A DNA stretch of 64,000 nt from an uncultured Bacteroidota bacterium (lineage in GTDB: Bacteria; Bacteroidota; Bacteroidia; Flavobacteriales; Flavobacteriaceae): the NCBI GenBank assembly GCA_902586905.1, contig CACIJH010000004.1, positions 27,488-91,487 on the forward strand, given 5' to 3'. The notes under the pieces are model-generated. The model saw only the letters and a program-made list of their open reading frames with translations. It was not told where the DNA came from and searched no databases. The position numbers were made by a program, and so were the translations under genes. Every line of letters begins with the position of its first letter. Within the stretch, counting starts at the first letter, position 1. Positions 39,304 to 52,657 of this stretch are shown piece by piece.

Positions 39304-40332
39304 ATGAAATACACAGCTTCCGAAATTGCTGAAATCCTAGATGGTTTTGTTGTGGGGGATGATGATGCTTGTGTTACTTCAATTGCGAAGATTGAAGAAG
39401 CACAAAAAGGTTCACTTGCCTTTTTAGCAAACCCCAAATACACAGAATTTTTGTACTCGACCAAAGCATCCGTTACGCTGGTTCGTGATAGTTTTCAGCC
39501 AGAGAAAGAGATTTCAACTACACTGGTCAAGGTTGCTGATCCTTATCTTTCGTTCACGACCATGCTTTCTCACTTCAATGGTTCTGAAAAAAAATACAAT
39601 GGTATTCATAACCATAGCCTAATCGACTCATCAGCTTCGATGGGAACAGATTGCTATGTTGGGCCATTTGCGACGATTGGGAGTGGTGTAAAGATTGGCA
39701 ATAATGTAAAAATACATGATCATGTTGTCATCGAATCCGATGTAGTTATAGGTGATCACACAACGATCTTTTCTGGAGCAAAAATTTTATCCAAATCTCA
39801 AATCGGGGCAAATTGTATTCTGCACAACAACGTTGTTATTGGTTCAGATGGTTTTGGGTTTAGTCCAACAGATTCGGGTGCTTATGAAAAAATCCCACAG
39901 ACTGGTTCTGTATTGATTGAGGATGATGTTGAAATTGGTTCGAACACTACGATTGATCGTGCAACACTTGGGGAAACCATCATACGCCAAGGAGTTAAGT
40001 TAGATAACTTAATCCAAATTGCTCATAATGTTGAGGTAGGTGCTCACACTGTCATCGCTGCTCAAACTGGCATCGCTGGGTCAACCAAAGTTGGAAGTCA
40101 TTGTGTTATTGGCGGACAAGTTGGTATCGCTGGTCATCTCAAAATCGGAAATCGTGTTCAAATTCAAGGTCAATCTGGTATTCTACGCAATCTTAAAGAC
40201 GATGAAAAAGTGATGGGTTATCCTGCAATTGATATTCTCTCCTACAACAAATCATATGTTCATTTTAAAAATCTAAACAAGCATATTAAAACACTTCATA
40301 AACTCCAAAAAAACCTTACTGACAATGGCTAA
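39304..40332 (+). CDS. lpxD: UDP-3-O-(3-hydroxyacyl)glucosamine N-acyltransferase
   Basis: Hexapeptide repeats, HNNVVIGSDGFGFSP, first of lpx cluster. Confidence 0.95.
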   Translation: MKYTASEIAEILDGFVVGDDDACVTSIAKIEEAQKGSLAFLANPKYTEFLYSTKASVTLVRDSFQPEKEISTTLVKVADPYLSFTTMLSHFNGSEKKYNGIHNHSLIDSSASMGTDCYVGPFATIGSGVKIGNNVKIHDHVVIESDVVIGDHTTIFSGAKILSKSQIGANCILHNNVVIGSDGFGFSPTDSGAYEKIPQTGSVLIEDDVEIGSNTTIDRATLGETIIRQGVKLDNLIQIAHNVEVGAHTVIAAQTGIAGSTKVGSHCVIGGQVGIAGHLKIGNRVQIQGQSGILRNLKDDEKVMGYPAIDILSYNKSYVHFKNLNKHIKTLHKLQKNLTDNG

Positions 40333-41725
40333 ACAAACTACAATTGCTGATTCAATTACACTCAAAGGTGTAGGAATTCACACAGGTGTCGAAGTAACAA
40401 TGACGTTTAAACCTGCAGCTGCCAATCATGGCTACGCATTTCAGCGAACAGACCTGGAAGGCAGTCCCATAATCGAAGCACTTGCGCACAACGTAGCAGA
40501 TACCAAGCGCGGAACTAGCCTTCAAAAAAATGGTGTAACCATTCAAACTTGTGAGCATGTCTTAGCAGCTTTTGTAGGCAGTGAAGTGGACAATGTTTTG
40601 ATTGAATTAAATGCTTCGGAAACACCAATTATGGATGGCTCATCCAAATTTTTTGTTGAAGCAATAGAAAAAGTTGGCACCAAAACACTCGATGCCGAAA
40701 GAGCTGAATACATCGTAAAGGAAAACATCACATATACTGATGATGAATCGGGAAGTGAAATCACTTTGTTGCCAGCAGATGACTATGAGGTTACAACCAT
40801 GGTCGATTTTGGAACGAAAGTTCTCGGAACCCAAAACGCAACTCTAAAGAAGCTGAGTCAGTTTCAAAAAGAGTTTGCAAACGCTCGTACGTTTAGCTTT
40901 TTACACGAGATTGAAACCCTACTAGAAAATGGGTTAATCAAAGGGGGAGACCTCAATAATGCGATTGTGTATGTTGACAAAGAACTATCTAAGGAAACGA
41001 TGGATCGGCTGCGAAAAGCATTTAATAAAACATCAATTTCAGTTAAGCCAAATGGGATTTTAGACAACCTTACGTTGCATTATCCCAATGAAGCAGCACG
41101 ACACAAATTGCTCGATGTGATTGGCGATTTGGCATTGATTGGAACACGCATCAGGGGTAAAGTGATCGCATCAAAACCAGGTCATGCGATCAATACGAAT
41201 TTTGCTAAAAAAATGGCAAAAATCATCAAAGAAGAGAAGAGAAATCGTGTGCCAAATTATGACTTAAATGTAGAGCCAGCACTTGATGTCAATCAGATTA
41301 TGAACATCTTACCCCATCGTCCACCTTTTCTACTTGTCGATAAGATACTTGAAATCAGCAAACAACACGTTGTGGCTGTTAAAAGTGTGACAATGAATGA
41401 GCCATTTTTTCAGGGACATTTCCCTGGACAACCTGTAATGCCAGGTGTTCTGCAAATTGAAGCTATGGCACAAGCAGGTGGTGTATTGGTACTCAACACT
41501 GTTCCAGATCCTGAAAATTACCTTACTTATTTTATTAAGATTGAAAACGCCAAGTTCAAACACCCAGTTGTTCCTGGCGATACACTTGTATTTAAACTTG
41601 AGCTATTGTCGCCTATCAGAAGGGGAATCTGTCATATGCAAGCCTATGCCTACAGCAGAGGTCGATTGACAACCGAGGCTGAAATGATGGCACAAATTGT
41701 CAAAAAAAATGAAACTAGCTTATGA
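40325..41725 (+). CDS. lpxC/fabZ: Bifunctional LpxC deacetylase / FabZ dehydratase
   Basis: LpxC GVGIHTG, CEHVLAAFVG, fused to FabZ LPHRPPFLLVDKI, HFPGQPVMPGVLQIEAMAQ. Confidence 0.96.
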   Translation: MAKQTTIADSITLKGVGIHTGVEVTMTFKPAAANHGYAFQRTDLEGSPIIEALAHNVADTKRGTSLQKNGVTIQTCEHVLAAFVGSEVDNVLIELNASETPIMDGSSKFFVEAIEKVGTKTLDAERAEYIVKENITYTDDESGSEITLLPADDYEVTTMVDFGTKVLGTQNATLKKLSQFQKEFANARTFSFLHEIETLLENGLIKGGDLNNAIVYVDKELSKETMDRLRKAFNKTSISVKPNGILDNLTLHYPNEAARHKLLDVIGDLALIGTRIRGKVIASKPGHAINTNFAKKMAKIIKEEKRNRVPNYDLNVEPALDVNQIMNILPHRPPFLLVDKILEISKQHVVAVKSVTMNEPFFQGHFPGQPVMPGVLQIEAMAQAGGVLVLNTVPDPENYLTYFIKIENAKFKHPVVPGDTLVFKLELLSPIRRGICHMQAYAYSRGRLTTEAEMMAQIVKKNETSL

Positions 41726-44720: not shown

Positions 44721-45539
44721 ATGAATAATTTACCAAAACTTGGACTACCAATCACTGTATTGCTTTTCGTAGCACTCATTATTCTTTTTCGATCAGCTGT
44801 GAACATCGGCTATGGAGAGGCTGGAGTTGTGTGGAAACGATTTGGTGGGGGTACAGTCGTTGACAAACCCGCACTGAAAGAGGGTTTTCATATCATTGCA
44901 CCTTGGAATAAGGTGTATATCTATAACATCAAACAACAAGAAGAATTTGAAAGCGGAATGCGCGTTTTATCTTCGAATGGTCTTGAAATATCTTTGGATG
45001 TTTCTGTCCTCTATCAGCCAGATATTGAGGAGTTGGGCTTGCTTCACAAAACCAAAGGTGAGGACTATCTAAACATTGTGATTGTCCCTGAAATTCGTGC
45101 AGTTGCACGTTCTGTTATTGGAAGATATACACCTGAACAGTTGTATTCTACCAAACGAGATGCCATTCAAAATGAAATCTATGAGGAAACCAAAAAGAAA
45201 GTGGAGCCACAACATGTACAAATCAACTCTGTCTTGGTACGTGATGTAACACTGCCACCTTCGATTAAAGAGGCAATTCAGCGTAAGCTTACCCAAGAGC
45301 AAGAAGCACTTGAGTATGAATTCCGATTGGAAAAAGCAAAACAAGAAGCAGAGAAAGTACGTATTGAAGCAGAAGGTAAAGCACTTGCCAATCGCATACT
45401 GAATGCCTCGCTTACAAGAAATATTCTTCTTGAAAAAGGGATTGAAGCCACCTTGCAATTATCAGAATCGACAAATGCAAAAGTGATTGTGATTGGAAGT
45501 GGGAAAGATGGTTTACCAATAATTTTGGGCAATCAATAG
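44721..45539 (+). CDS. Prohibitin/SPFH-domain membrane protein
   Basis: N-terminal TM helix, VNIGYGEAGVVWKRFGG, EIRAVARSVIGRYTPEQLYSTKRD. Confidence 0.9.
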   Translation: MNNLPKLGLPITVLLFVALIILFRSAVNIGYGEAGVVWKRFGGGTVVDKPALKEGFHIIAPWNKVYIYNIKQQEEFESGMRVLSSNGLEISLDVSVLYQPDIEELGLLHKTKGEDYLNIVIVPEIRAVARSVIGRYTPEQLYSTKRDAIQNEIYEETKKKVEPQHVQINSVLVRDVTLPPSIKEAIQRKLTQEQEALEYEFRLEKAKQEAEKVRIEAEGKALANRILNASLTRNILLEKGIEATLQLSESTNAKVIVIGSGKDGLPIILGNQ

Positions 45540-45576
45540 TGATTTTTTAAAATTTTGTTTGATATTTGCAATTGAA

Positions 45577-45630
45577 ATGAAAAAAAATACACATATCCAC
45601 CACAATATCGCCTTGTCTCAGACGAGTTGA
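45577..45630 (+). CDS. hisL: His-operon leader peptide MKKNTHIHHNIALSQTS
   Basis: 17-codon ORF with 3 His codons in 5 codons, directly upstream of an attenuator and hisG. Confidence 0.8.
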   Translation: MKKNTHIHHNIALSQTS

Positions 45631-45685
45631 ATTGGATATGATATAACCTATTCAAAACCCGTTTGAGATTCAAGCGGGTTTTTTT
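45612..45685 (+). promoter_or_regulatory. his transcription attenuator (1:2, 2:3 and 3:4 structures)
   Basis: 1:2 CTTGTC-TCA-GACGAG (45612-45626); 2:3 TCTCAGACG (45616-45624) with CGTTTGAGA (45660-45668); 3:4 terminator 45654-45666 with 45670-45682 plus T-tract. Confidence 0.8.
45654..45685 (+). terminator. Rho-independent terminator of the his leader
   Basis: AAAACCCGTTTGA-GAT-TCAAGCGGGTTTTTTT, 13 bp with one G-U. Confidence 0.88.
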
Positions 45686-45704
45686 GTTATAAAAATTTAA
45701 AATC

Positions 45705-46565
45705 GTGAAAAAAAAGTTACACATCGCTGTTCAAAAATCAGGAAGACTCCATGACGAGTCGCTAAAACTCCTTAATGATTGTGGGATTTCCATTGACAAT
45801 GGCAAAGACCAACTCAAGGCTGTTGCGCGTCATTTTCCATTGGAAGTTTACTACCTGCGCAATGGGGATATCCCTCAATATCTTCGTGATGGAGTTGTTG
45901 ATGTCGCGATCATTGGAGAGAATTTGCTTGTCGAAAAAGGAGCTGAAATCGTCGTAAAAGAAAAACTAGGATTCTCGAAGTGTAGGGTATCGATTGCCAT
46001 TCCTAAAGACGATGATTACAGTGGTGTTCAGAGTCTGAAAGGCAAGAAAATCGCAACATCATATCCAAATACAGTCAACCAATTCCTTGCAGAAAAAGGT
46101 GTTGATGCTGATTTGCACATCATCAATGGTTCAGTTGAAATTGCTCCGAATATCGGTTTATCAGATGCTGTTTGTGATATTGTTTCAAGTGGCTCGACCT
46201 TGTTTAAAAACAACTTGAAGGAAGTTGAAGTGTTGTTTACTTCCGAGGCAGTACTTGCTGCGAGTAACACTCTCGATGATGATAAAAGCGAGATTTTATC
46301 AAAACTTCGATTTCGCATTCAATCTGTACTGAAAGGGCGCCAGTCAAAATATATCTTAATGAACGTTCCCAACGATAGTATAGAAAAGATATCATCCATT
46401 CTTCCTGTTTTGAAATCACCAACTGTGTTGCCCTTGGCAGAACCAGGCTGGAGCTCACTCCACTCTGTGATCAATGAAGGTACATTTTGGGAGGTGATCG
46501 ACCAATTGAAAGCAGCAGGAGCACAGGATATTTTGGTCTGTCCAGTAGAAAAAATGGTGTTATGA
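45705..46565 (+). CDS. hisG: ATP phosphoribosyltransferase (long form)
   Basis: IAVQKSGRLHDESLKLL, DVAIIGENLLVE; GTG start. Confidence 0.96.
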   Translation: MKKKLHIAVQKSGRLHDESLKLLNDCGISIDNGKDQLKAVARHFPLEVYYLRNGDIPQYLRDGVVDVAIIGENLLVEKGAEIVVKEKLGFSKCRVSIAIPKDDDYSGVQSLKGKKIATSYPNTVNQFLAEKGVDADLHIINGSVEIAPNIGLSDAVCDIVSSGSTLFKNNLKEVEVLFTSEAVLAASNTLDDDKSEILSKLRFRIQSVLKGRQSKYILMNVPNDSIEKISSILPVLKSPTVLPLAEPGWSSLHSVINEGTFWEVIDQLKAAGAQDILVCPVEKMVL

Positions 46566-47845
46566 GACGTGTAAACAATCCATCTATCGATCAATGGGGT
46601 GCGCTTTGCACTCGTCCAACAGCCTCTTTGGACGACGTTATGGCTGTTGTTGATGAAGTCTTTGATGCCATCCAAATGCAAGGAGATCAAGCCATACAGC
46701 GTTTTAGTCAGAAGTTTGATGGCTATCAGCCAAAGTCTATTGAAGTGGCGCAAAAAGACTTGCAAAACGCTCAAAATGAGTTGTCTGCTGATTTGAAAAA
46801 CGCTATTGATAAGGCCTATGAAAATATATATGCCTTTCACCAAGCACAAAAAACAAGTCGTGTACAGGTTGAAGTGCAAGATGGTGTAAGCTGCTGGCAG
46901 GAGAAACGACCCATCGAAAAGGTTGGGCTTTACATCCCTGGAGGAACAGCACCCTTGTTTTCTTCTATCTTGATGCTTGCAATTCCAGCGACGATTGCTG
47001 GTTGTCGAGAGATTGTTTTGTGTACGCCTCCCAACTCCTCTGGCATTCTCGATCCAGCGATCAGGTATGCTGCGTATAAGTGTGGTGTTACACGATTGTT
47101 TCAGGTGGGAGGGATACAAGCCATTGGTGGATTGACTTTTGGCACAGAAAGCATCCCTAAAGTATATAAGATTTTGGGGCCTGGCAACCAGTATGTGACT
47201 GCTGCCAAGCAAAAAGCAACCCAATATGGTGTATCGATCGATATGCCTGCTGGTCCCAGTGAGTTGTTGGTCGTTGCCGATGATACTGCTGTTCCTTCGT
47301 ATGTGGCAGCAGATTTGCTGTCGCAAGCAGAACATGGCGTAGATAGCCAAGTGGTTTTGGTGAGCACAAGTCAAAAGATCATTGATGAGGTGCAAGAAGA
47401 ACTCCAAAAACAACTGATAGCAGTCCCTCGAAAGGATATTGCAGCAAAAGCCCTTGAAAACTCTACTGCCATTTACTTTGACGCTGAGTCAAAGGCTATT
47501 GATTTTATCAACGAATATGGGCCTGAGCACTACATCATCTGTATGTCAAACGAAAAGGGCTTTGTTGCGGGTGTTGTCAATGCTGGTTCTGTGTTTATTG
47601 GCAATTATACCCCTGAAAGTGCTGGGGATTATGCTTCTGGAACGAATCACACATTGCCGACGAATGGCTATGCAAAGCAATACAGTGGTGTGAACCTCGA
47701 TAGCTTTCTCAAGGCGATTACCTTTCAAAAAATAAGTTCGAAAGGGTTGCAAGACCTTGGACCATCAATAGAAACCCTAGCAGAGGCAGAGGGGTTGTTT
47801 GCACACAAAAATGCAGTCAGTGTTCGTTTAAATGATTTGAAATGA
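46562..47845 (+). CDS. hisD: Histidinol dehydrogenase
   Basis: VGLYIPGGTAPLFSSILMLAIPATIAGC, DMPAGPSELLVVAD; ATG at 46562 overlaps hisG stop. Confidence 0.97.
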   Translation: MRRVNNPSIDQWGALCTRPTASLDDVMAVVDEVFDAIQMQGDQAIQRFSQKFDGYQPKSIEVAQKDLQNAQNELSADLKNAIDKAYENIYAFHQAQKTSRVQVEVQDGVSCWQEKRPIEKVGLYIPGGTAPLFSSILMLAIPATIAGCREIVLCTPPNSSGILDPAIRYAAYKCGVTRLFQVGGIQAIGGLTFGTESIPKVYKILGPGNQYVTAAKQKATQYGVSIDMPAGPSELLVVADDTAVPSYVAADLLSQAEHGVDSQVVLVSTSQKIIDEVQEELQKQLIAVPRKDIAAKALENSTAIYFDAESKAIDFINEYGPEHYIICMSNEKGFVAGVVNAGSVFIGNYTPESAGDYASGTNHTLPTNGYAKQYSGVNLDSFLKAITFQKISSKGLQDLGPSIETLAEAEGLFAHKNAVSVRLNDLK

Positions 47846-48885
47846 GTTTTGATATCAACAAACTGGTACGCAAGCATATTGCTGATTTACAGCCTTATTC
47901 ATCTGCCAGAGATGAATTTGAACCTGTGAATCGACAAGTGGTGTATCTCGATGCAAACGAAAATCCATTTGAAAATGGTGTGAATCGATACCCTGATCCA
48001 CAACAGCGCAAACTAAAACAAATCATCGCTTCCCAAAAAGGGATTTCTGAAAAGCAACTGTTGCTCGGCAACGGAAGTGATGAAGTTTTGGACTTGATTT
48101 TTCGTGCTTTTTGTGTTCCAAATCAGGATGAAATTATGATTATGCCTCCAACCTATGGGATGTATAAAGTTCTCGCAAATATCAATTGCATTACTTTACG
48201 TGAGGTATATTTAAATATTGATTTTCAGTTAGTTATAAAAAATATACTCGATCAAATATCAAACCAAACAAAGGCAATTTTTTTATGTTCACCCAACAAT
48301 CCAAGTGGCAATTCGTTTAGAAGAGAAGATCTGCTCAAATTGGTTCAATCATTTGATGGTTTGGTGGTTGTTGATGAAGCTTATATAGACTTTTCAACAC
48401 AAGACAGTTTGATAGAAGAGTTGTCCAACTATCCCAATTTTATCATTACTCAAACCCTTTCCAAAGCCTATGGTATGGCAGGGATTCGACTGGGGATTTG
48501 CATTGCTAGCGAAGAAATCATTGCGATTCTCAACAAAATCAAACCACCTTATAACATCAATACCCTTACGCAAGAACGCGCAATTGATTCCCTCCAAGAC
48601 AAAGAATCAATACAAGCCCAGATTAAACAACTGATGGATGAGAGAAGTCGCTTATATGACCAATTGCAAGGAGTCTCCTTTGTTGAAAAGGTGTATCCCA
48701 GTGATGCAAACTTTCTATTGGTGCGTGTTGATGATGCTGACAAGAGGTATGCGCAACTCATTGAGAATGATATTGTTGTGCGCAACCGAAGTCTGCAATA
48801 TGGCTGTGAGAACTGCCTTCGTTTCTCTGTTGGCACAGCTGATGAAAACAAAATTTTGATCCAAACACTAAATCGATTGTCATAA
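47842..48885 (+). CDS. hisC: Histidinol-phosphate aminotransferase
   Basis: LDANENPFENG, LCSPNNPSGN, QTLSKAYGMAGIRLG. Confidence 0.97.
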   Translation: MSFDINKLVRKHIADLQPYSSARDEFEPVNRQVVYLDANENPFENGVNRYPDPQQRKLKQIIASQKGISEKQLLLGNGSDEVLDLIFRAFCVPNQDEIMIMPPTYGMYKVLANINCITLREVYLNIDFQLVIKNILDQISNQTKAIFLCSPNNPSGNSFRREDLLKLVQSFDGLVVVDEAYIDFSTQDSLIEELSNYPNFIITQTLSKAYGMAGIRLGICIASEEIIAILNKIKPPYNINTLTQERAIDSLQDKESIQAQIKQLMDERSRLYDQLQGVSFVEKVYPSDANFLLVRVDDADKRYAQLIENDIVVRNRSLQYGCENCLRFSVGTADENKILIQTLNRLS

Positions 48886-50007
48886 ATGAAAAAGGTTTTA
48901 TTTATCGATAGAGATGGTACACTTGCTTTAGAACCAGACGACTACCAACTCGACAGTTTTGAAAAACTGACTTACTATCCAGGTATGTTCACCTATCTTG
49001 GTCGTATTGCCAATGAATTGGACTATACACTGGTGATGGTCACAAATCAGGATGGGCTAGGGACTAAAAGTTTTTCCGAAGAACAGTTTTGGCCGATCCA
49101 TAAACATCTTATCGATGCAATGAAAAACGAAGGGATTGTCTTTGACGAAGTCTGTATAGATAAGAGTTTTCCAGAAGATAAAGCACCCACACGTAAACCA
49201 GAAACGGGTTTGTTAAAAACCTATTTATCAGGTGATTATGATTTAAAAAACTCCTATGTCATTGGCGATCGATTAAGTGATATGCAACTGGCTGTCAACC
49301 TTGGGTCGAAGGGTATTTGGCTCAAAAGCGATGATCGCCTAAGTGAAACAGCAGATAAAACCACCAAAGCATCGATAGCATTGACTACTTCCAATTGGAG
49401 TGATGTATATGCATTGCTAAAAGCAGGTGAACGCCAGTACACACACAAACGTACAACCAAAGAAACAGACATCTCCATCGCCCTCAACCTCGATGGAACT
49501 GGGCAAAGTACTATCGATACTGGTATTGCCTTTTTTGATCATATGCTGGATCAATTGGCTCGTCATGGTGGGATTGATATCAAACTGACCACCAAAGGCG
49601 ATTTGGAGGTCGATGAGCACCACACCATCGAAGATACTGCCATTGCTTTGGGCGAAGCTTTCTATATGGCATTGGGGAACAAGCTTGGAATTGAGCGCTA
49701 TGGTTTTTGTTTGCCCATGGACGATTGCCTTGCGCAAGTTGCCATTGATTTTGGTGGACGAGCATGGCTGATGTGGGATGCAAAGTTTAAGCGAGAAATG
49801 ATTGGAAAAATGCCAACGGAGATGTTTTTTCACTTCTTTAAATCCTTTGCTGATGGTGCCAAAGCTAATCTCAACATAAAGGCAGAGGGTCACAACGAGC
49901 ATCACAAAATTGAGGCGATATTTAAAAGCTTCGCCAAAGCCATTAAGGCAGCCATTCAGCGGGACCCTGAGAAATTGATTTTACCTTCGACCAAAGGGCA
50001 ATTATGA
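48886..50007 (+). CDS. hisB: Bifunctional histidinol-phosphatase / imidazoleglycerol-phosphate dehydratase
   Basis: [15 protein letters not shown] plus [34 protein letters not shown]. Confidence 0.97.
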
Positions 50008-50582
50008 GCATATCAATCATAGACTATGGGGCAGGGAATATCCAGAGCATACGCTTTGCGTTGGAGCGTCTGGGGTTTTCAGCTACACTGACCAGTGATG
50101 CCGACATCATACAGTCTTCTTCACACGTCATCTTTCCAGGAGTAGGGGAAGCGAGTTCAGCAATGGCCAAACTCAAAAGCACTGGGTTGGATACCCTCAT
50201 TCCAGCGCTCACACAACCAGTGTTGGGGATTTGCTTGGGGATGCAGTTGATGTGTAATAGCTCTGAAGAAGGGAATACCAAGGGGTTGGGTATTTTTGAT
50301 ACAGAAGTTGTTCGCTTTGCAACCAAACGCAATGTGCCGCATATGGGTTGGAATGAGGTTGATGGGCGTGGGGTATTGTTTACTAAAATCACAAACAACA
50401 GTCATTTTTATATGGTACACAGCTATTATGCCAAACCCAACAGCAATACTGTTGGCACATGTACATATGATATAGACTTTGCTGCTGCCATGGCAAAAGA
50501 TAATTTTTTCGGCACCCAGTTTCACCCTGAAAAGAGTGGGCAAATGGGGGCTCAACTCCTTCAAAATTTTCTTCAGTTATGA
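50004..50582 (+). CDS. hisH: Imidazole glycerol phosphate synthase, glutaminase subunit
   Basis: [33 protein letters not shown]. Confidence 0.97.
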
Positions 50583-51307
50583 TTCTGATTCCTGCAATCG
50601 ACATCATCGGCGGACAATGTATACGCCTGACAAAGGGTGTGTATGACACCAAAACTGTTTATAGTGATTCTCCTCTAGAGGTTGCCAAACGTTTTGAAGG
50701 TGCTGGTATCACTCACCTACACTTGGTTGATCTCGATGGTGCTCGTGCCAAACATATCGTCAATGCCAATATCCTAGAGTCGATTGCCACAAAAACATCT
50801 CTACAAGTGGACTTTGGTGGTGGAATCAAATCAGCAAAAGACTTGCAAACTGCTTTTGACTGTGGTGCTGCACAAGTGACTTTGGGCAGTATTGCTGTGA
50901 GTCAACCAGCACTGGTGTTGGAATGGCTAGAGTCCTATGGGGGCGATCAACTGATTTTGGGAGCAGATGCCAAAAATCGTCGCATTGCAACGCATGGTTG
51001 GGAGCAAGACTCTGGTATTGATGTATTGGTTTTTGTAAAAGACTATGTACAAAAGGGTTTTACAAACGTATTGTGCACAGATGTTGCCAAAGATGGCATG
51101 CTAGAGGGCCCCTCGCTTGAACTCTATAAAGAACTATTGTCAACAGTCGATGGTATCTCCTTGATTGCGTCTGGAGGCGTGAGTACGATGGATGACGTAT
51201 ATGCTTGTCGTGAACTTGGTTGTGCTGCTGCAGTCGTGGGTAAGGCGATATACGAAGGAAACATTGCGCTAAAAGACTTAGAAACCTATCAACTCAATCA
51301 AAACTAG
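50579..51307 (+). CDS. hisA: Phosphoribosylformimino-AICAR ribotide isomerase
   Basis: [39 protein letters not shown]. Confidence 0.97.
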
Positions 51308-51308
51308 T

Positions 51309-52061
51309 ATGCTCACAAAACGAATCATACCCTGTTTGGATATCAAAGATGGACGCACGGTTAAGGGGGTTAACTTTGTCAACCTTCGTGATGCTGGTGA
51401 TCCTGTCGAGCTTGCGCAGCGCTATGCAGATGAAGGCGCAGATGAACTTGTGTTTTTAGATATATCAGCATCAGAGGAAAAGCGAAAAACCCTTGCCAAA
51501 CTCGTTCGTGATGTTGCACAAGCCATCGACATACCTTTTACCGTTGGTGGGGGCATCAACGCCTTAGAAGATGTTGGTGTTTTGCTTGATAATGGAGCTG
51601 ACAAAGTATCGATCAACTCTGCAGCTGTGCGACGCCCTGAAATGATTAGTGAAATCGCAAATCGATTTGGAACACAATGTGTTGTTGTTGCAATCGACGC
51701 CAAACAGATTGCTAATGACTGGATTGTGCATCTGGTTGGGGGCAAGGTCCCCACAGAGAAAAAACTCTTTGAATGGGCACAAGAGGCAGTCGCACGAGGA
51801 GCAGGGGAGTTGCTTTTTACCTCCATGGATCACGATGGCACCAAAGCAGGATTCGCCAATCAGGCATTGCGACAACTCAGTGATATCGTGACTGTACCTG
51901 TGATAGCTTCTGGGGGTGCAGGAACAATACAACACTTTATTGATACCTTTATCGAGGGAAATGCAGACGCAGCTTTGGCTGCAAGTGTTTTTCATTTTAA
52001 AGAAATTGGCATACAAGAGCTTAAAAACAAATTACGATTACAAAAAATACAAACGAGATGA
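51309..52061 (+). CDS. hisF: Imidazole glycerol phosphate synthase, cyclase subunit
   Basis: [43 protein letters not shown]. Confidence 0.97.
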
Positions 52062-52657
52062 CAATTAATTTCAGCAAACATCCGCAAGGACTTGTTCCAG
52101 CCATCGTGCAAGATGCCAGTACCAAACGCGTATTGATGTTGGGCTATATGAATAAGGAGGCAGTGAATACAACTCAGGAAAAACAGCAAGTTACCTTTTA
52201 TAGTCGATCCAAAAAACGACTGTGGACAAAAGGGGAGGAGAGTGGTCACTTTTTACAACTCGTGGATATGGCAGTGGATTGTGATCAAGACACCTTGTTG
52301 ATCCAAGCCAATCCAGTTGGGCCGAGCTGCCATACAGGTGATGATACCTGTTGGGGTGAAGACAATACGTCGAGTTATGGATTTTTAACTGCTTTGGAAG
52401 AGGTTATTAATGATCGTAAAAACAACCCTTCTGACAAGAGTTATGTTGCGCGTTTGTTTGCAAAAGGGATGAATAAAATTGCCCAAAAAGTAGGGGAGGA
52501 AGCAGTGGAAACAGTGATTGAGGCCAAAGACGAAAACAGTGATTTGTTTCTCAATGAAAGTGCTGATTTACTCTTTCACCTAATGATATTACTGCAAGCC
52601 AAAGGACATCGATTGGATGATGTTGTTCAAATTTTAGAAGAACGGCAAAAGGGGTAG
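52058..52657 (+). CDS. hisIE: Bifunctional phosphoribosyl-AMP cyclohydrolase / phosphoribosyl-ATP pyrophosphatase
   Basis: [22 protein letters not shown] and [14 protein letters not shown]. Confidence 0.97.

Follow-up and report, generated by a model that had tools for sequence, protein, structure and literature searches.

A His-codon leader upstream of hisG in Flavobacteriaceae, very probably a ribosome-mediated transcription attenuator, and its recurrence across Bacteroidota

In the his attenuator of enterobacteria (E. coli and Salmonella), a leader peptide rich in His codons precedes competing antiterminator and terminator structures, and hisG is the first gene of the controlled operon. 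The run of His codons in the E. coli his leader is longer than about four. A Trp-codon leader with a terminator, the Bacteroid-trp RNA, is known from Bacteroidetes, and candidate attenuators in Bacteroidetes/Chlorobi were reportedly mentioned by Vitreschak et al. in 2004. Like the element described here, Bacteroid-trp (RF01692) is a predicted cis-regulatory element of this phylum, but for a different amino acid (PMC2864571). The His-leader attenuators of Firmicutes (Bacillus cereus group, Peptostreptococcaceae, Erysipelotrichales) are alike in having 3–5 consecutive His codons together with a terminator and an antiterminator; they belong to another phylum, and the likeness is one of description (PMC9413887). 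At keyword level, a study from 2021 on the his genes of the superphylum describes attenuation for enterobacteria only (PMC8305728). The 2021 transcriptome of Flavobacterium psychrophilum revealed a structured hisG 5′ element, common to other Flavobacteriaceae genera and without an Rfam match, and the same section gives clues to leader-peptide attenuation before amino-acid operons; the main text contains neither an alignment nor any mention of His codons or an antiterminator, and does not go beyond the family (PMC9723704). Set together by description, that hisG element is almost certainly the one analysed here. Thus, the kind of system is already known and its presence in Flavobacteriaceae has been noticed before, but, as far as we searched the literature, there is no description of its distribution over Bacteroidota, of the compensatory segment exchange between lineages or of the predicted near-leaderless start.

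The element lies in a window of 64,000 nucleotides from a genome of the Flavobacteriaceae, a lineage that agrees with the Bacteroidota-like genome guessed in the initial annotation, which was made from the letters alone; the nearest named relative is UBA5950 (HisG 98% identical). The window contains a complete his operon, hisG-D-C-B-H-A-F-IE (45705–52657), and the interval between hisG and an SPFH/slipin-like gene ending at 45539 is occupied by a leader ORF and a terminator (Table 1). To judge from these sequences and those of relatives, the element is very probably a ribosome-mediated transcription attenuator of the his operon, as first annotated: it combines the features of this class, that is, a His-rich ORF, an intrinsic terminator, an antiterminator that uses the 5′ arm of the terminator, and a matching ribosome geometry, and the conserved His codons, the shared arm and the spacing all support this reading. 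The initial annotation also spoke of the classic enteric his logic. The logic is indeed the same, but the likeness is one of analogy and not of homology, because no Rfam family matches. In contrast to the enterobacterial his leader, the element has no recognisable sequence or Rfam match to it, its segment 2 extends as far as the stop codon, there is no Shine-Dalgarno sequence, the predicted transcription start lies almost at the AUG, and there are about four His codons instead of a longer run. An Rfam search of the window and 11 relatives at gathering scores returned one tRNA and otherwise nothing; a His leader was absent among the 25 matches down to E 10, and RF01692 was matched neither by the window nor by the trpE locus of the genome.

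Table 1. Coordinates of the hisG leader, its predicted promoter and the controlled operon in the window.
Feature	Position	Strand	Evidence or remark
Second −7 box match, AAATTTTG	45550–45557	+	Also 5/6 match; would give a 15 nt 5′UTR
Predicted −7 box, GATATTTG (consensus TAnnTTTG)	45561–45568	+	5/6 match; predicted start near 45573, 5′UTR ~4 nt
Leader peptide ORF, MKKNTHIHHNIALSQTS, 17 codons	45577–45630	+	ATG 45577, stop TGA 45628–45630; His-rich short ORF here in 175/190 loci
Regulatory codons CAT-ATC-CAC-CAC (3 His)	45592–45603	+	CAT 45592, ATC 45595, CAC 45598, CAC 45601
Segment 1 (His codons)	45592–45599	+	8 bp with 45633–45640 in the MFE fold
Segment 2, antiterminator 5′ arm	45615–45627	+	Pairs with 45657–45669; ends at the leader stop codon; 88% of cells paired, 58 sequences
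Segment 1′, protector helix 3′ arm	45633–45640	+	Within the antiterminator hairpin too
Intrinsic terminator, 13 bp, loop 3	45654–45686	+	Stem 45654–45666/45670–45682, T-run 45679–45686
Segment 3, 3′ arm in the antiterminator, 5′ arm in the terminator	45657–45669	+	Pairing, covariation
hisG, first gene of the controlled operon	45705–46565	+	GTG start; TIGR00070, E 9e-52
hisD, hisC, hisB (bifunctional), hisH, hisA, hisF, hisIE	46562–52657	+	NCBIfam match for each

The initial annotation had described a 17-codon ORF with CAT-ATC-CAC-CAC in its middle, and every coordinate that it gave proved correct to the base. Conservation of these His codons in relatives, by which it had proposed to judge the reading, was examined in the hisG upstream regions of 190 loci, 110 from relatives and 80 chosen across the order, the class and the phylum, a leader being defined as a short ORF that contains three or more His codons close together. 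Such a leader precedes hisG in 175/190 Bacteroidota loci, as compared with 83/3800 shuffled sequences (2.2%); the rule found none in the other 15, some of which carry a weaker leader. Homologous leaders contain 3–7 His codons (median 4), and among their peptides the types MKKNTHIHHLFALSQTS, MRNKNTHHHFYTCPQAR and MTFIQLHHHHFHTCTQAS occur in Flavobacteriales and MKKHLHIHHHAVPQG, MNRTHHHHHLTYSENPE and MKQITHIHHHHFLTNG outside this order. The C-terminal QAR/QTS of the leader is conserved as well, which is best explained at the level of RNA, because the codons for these residues constitute segment 2. A covariance model built on the element, R1, gave a strong match in all 19 family genomes that have hisG (E 3.4e-6 or better) and weak background matches only in the five that lack it (E 1.8e-4 or worse); the matches in family genomes lie upstream of hisG, indicating a conserved structured element there.

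The terminator is the sole terminator-like site between 45200 and 45900, and its T-run ends about 20 nt before the hisG GTG at 45705. A terminator follows the leader in 156/175 loci, versus 78/875 shuffles (9%), and the leader region folds with −33 kcal/mol, versus −17 in shuffles (z −5.8, 0/200 shuffles). In an alignment of 58 non-redundant sequences, nearly all of them from Flavobacteriales, 95% of the cells of the terminator stem were paired, five pairs had changed on both sides, and 0/500 shuffles reached any of the covariation measures. Thus, the annotated 3:4 terminator, 45654–45666 with 45670–45682 and a T-tract, is present, conserved and covarying.

Within the leader, TCTCAGACG (45616–45624) is complementary to CGTTTGAGA (45660–45668) over 9 bp with one G-U, as stated in the initial annotation, according to which this 2:3 antiterminator consumes the 5′ arm of the terminator; both the duplex and its conservation were confirmed. 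Among the 58 sequences, 88% of the antiterminator cells (CTCARRCG with CGTTTGAG) were paired, as compared with 21–48% for slid versions, and four pairs carried double changes. A double change was found even inside the genus of the window, where locus L008 has G-C and the window A-U at 45622/45662. The covariation of the antiterminator in Flavobacteriales exceeded that of shuffles only moderately (10–42/500 on the better measures), because the antiterminator is so conserved within this order. Covariation, the sign that had been proposed for a check among relatives, is seen in both the 2:3 and the 3:4 stem. Measured against shuffles, the 2:3 duplex ranked within the top 5% in 10/10 loci of the genus, 82/92 Flavobacteriales loci and 30/53 other loci, and within the top 1% in all 10 genus loci analysed.

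Outside Flavobacteriales, the terminator arm is often GGCTTRCC instead of CCCGTTTGAG (loci L123, L129, L136–L138 and L180 are among these), and the leader then carries its complement, GGTRAGC, at the end. The leaders of 20 loci of the GGCTTRCC type pair with their own arm at a mean of −14.9 versus −9.0 with Flavobacteria arms, and in the reverse swap Flavobacteria-type leaders reach −14.0 with their own arm versus −8.4 with that of the other type; each class pairs about 6 kcal/mol better with its own arm than with the arm of the other class. As far as can be read from the sequences, this exchange is a wholesale compensatory switch, and it constitutes the decisive structural evidence, coming from outside Flavobacteriales. 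Either one ancestral element drifted to the GGCTTRCC/GGTRAGC form, or there were several independent origins.

The 1:2 hairpin of the initial annotation fared differently. The complementarity of CTTGTC (45612–45617) and GACGAG (45621–45626) is there in the sequence, but across loci only 46% of the cells of this hairpin were paired, no better than in slid controls, and it was rejected as a conserved element outside the genus. A helix between the His codons and the region past the stop codon (45592–45599/45633–45640) is the likelier competitor in its place, with modest support: a comparable helix is found in many relatives, and the MAFFT columns are gappy there, which weakens the test. As a protector helix, it would be expected to favour termination by default.

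We infer stalling, termination and the response to histidine from a model in which the position of the ribosome decides between the two hairpins. RNA polymerase would start a short distance ahead of the leader ATG, and the short leader ORF would take up a ribosome. When charged tRNA-His is scarce, the ribosome would stall on the His codons (45592–45603) with its leading edge just short of segment 2, which could then pair with segment 3 once this is transcribed (45615–45669), so that the terminator would be blocked and the operon transcribed. When His-tRNA is plentiful, the ribosome would reach the stop codon at 45628 and cover segment 2, segments 3 and 4 would pair, and transcription would stop at approximately 45686. 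The spacing is consistent with this. Counted from the first base of the last His codon, the median distance to the beginning of segment 2 is 14 nt, which would place this beginning roughly just beyond the front edge of a ribosome stalled on that codon (the folding rules use an assumed edge of 12 nt); segment 2 then extends as far as the stop codon. With a simulated ribosome on a His codon, the antiterminator formed before segment 4 in 154/155 loci, and with the ribosome on the stop codon the terminator was intact in 154/155 loci. In the window, the antiterminator hairpin (45615–45669) amounts to −18.6 kcal/mol as long as segment 4 is missing, compared with −16.6 for the terminator alone. With all segments made and the ribosome stalled, equilibrium folding still favours the terminator by 1.7–4 kcal/mol in the window; therefore, the switch must rely on the order of synthesis, with the antiterminator forming first.

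The same folding data bear on a variant of this explanation, in which the attenuator reads through by default when the leader is untranslated, and the chief effect of translating the leader is to shut the operon off. As long as segment 4 has not been made, ribosome-free RNA is able to adopt the antiterminator fold in 8/10 loci of the genus and 51/92 loci of Flavobacteriales, and the protector helix is weak; in the full-length RNA, however, the terminator represents the stable state in every locus of the genus. We consider this variant rather doubtful but worth keeping in mind; it does not exclude the main explanation, since it alters only the behaviour of an untranslated leader and not the response to His-tRNA. 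Far less probable is a leader RNA that senses histidine shortage otherwise, through a T-box, a protein or a ligand bound directly, the ORF being a side feature. Many his operons elsewhere are indeed under T-boxes or repressors (PMC9413887), but Rfam gave no match to such an element at or near gathering scores, the T-box model included, in the window and its relatives, and the conserved His codons, together with the Trp and Phe/Tyr codons of the sister leaders described below, point to decoding as the sensor.

Least probable of all, and in our view close to negligible, is that the hairpin only terminates the SPFH/slipin-like gene, the His-rich ORF being coincidental and hisG transcribed from its own downstream promoter. 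This gene (44721–45539) is on the same strand as the hairpin and ends 114 nt before it, and its homologues stand upstream in 99/110 relatives. Nevertheless, the leader is kept in the 11 loci with no SPFH-like neighbour, in 10 of them with a terminator found by the rules, and leader and terminator recur before hisG in other orders; moreover, this reading leaves the His codons and segment 2 no cause for conservation. As the element is kept at loci with other neighbours, we rejected it in favour of attenuation by a ribosome translating the leader.

The leader transcript is predicted to be nearly leaderless, with a 5′UTR of about 4 nt. In each of the 10 genus loci analysed, precisely 8 nt separate the GATATTTG box from the leader ATG, and the AAATTTTG box is lost in L008; the assignment of the promoter to GATATTTG is not certain, since AAATTTTG scores equally. 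Over the 175 loci, the distance from a TAnnTTTG box to the ATG is bimodal, with peaks at 7–8 and 17–19 nt. Given a box offset of −12 to −5 from the start, taken from the F. psychrophilum study (PMC9723704), these peaks predict 5′UTRs of about 3–4 or 13–15 nt, and the two classes may initiate translation of the leader differently. Most Flavobacterium transcripts have longer leaders, 87% of those of F. johnsoniae exceeding 10 nt (PMC6847099). The idea of a leaderless transcript for a leader peptide is not new in itself, since trpL of Sinorhizobium meliloti already provides an example (PMC7298713). We give even chances to the proposition that a his attenuator goes back to an early stage in the evolution of Bacteroidota, with its leader translated from a nearly leaderless transcript (~4 nt 5′UTR) without a Shine-Dalgarno sequence; if true, this would be evidence for tight coupling of transcription and translation in Bacteroidota. 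Since Shine-Dalgarno sequences are missing in this group, the predicted start also makes one ask by what means ribosomes are recruited to such leaders.

Sister leaders were looked for in the same genome before pheA, trpE and ilvD. On contig 3, a Trp leader, MKNINTWWSALNAQS, precedes trpE (L223:1344-1391) and is followed by a GGCTTGTC..GACAGGCC terminator, and leaders with WW or WWW recur before trpE in relatives. On the minus strand of contig 1, a Phe/Tyr-rich leader, MNNSFYYYNAYYTSQTEQGGL, precedes pheA (L221:2109-2174), with an AGTCCTGA..TCAGGGCT terminator behind it; in 19/20 loci, pheA has a Phe/Tyr-rich leader in front of it. No leader was found upstream of ilvD in this genome. As the Trp and Phe/Tyr leaders are present in the genome and conserved in relatives, leader-based control appears to be general here. 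Because attenuators need a ribosome close behind RNA polymerase, the conservation of His, Trp and Phe/Tyr attenuators would mean that transcription and translation are coupled in Bacteroidota, and the his attenuator could serve as a native reporter for testing this coupling. A textbook control mechanism, noticed in this phylum only in passing before, is extended by strong comparative evidence to most of it.

Upstream of the his locus, the window ORF at 40325–41725 has, by eye, an LpxC-like start and a second half with the FabZ-like motif MNILPHRPPFLLVDKI, and is probably an LpxC-FabZ fusion.
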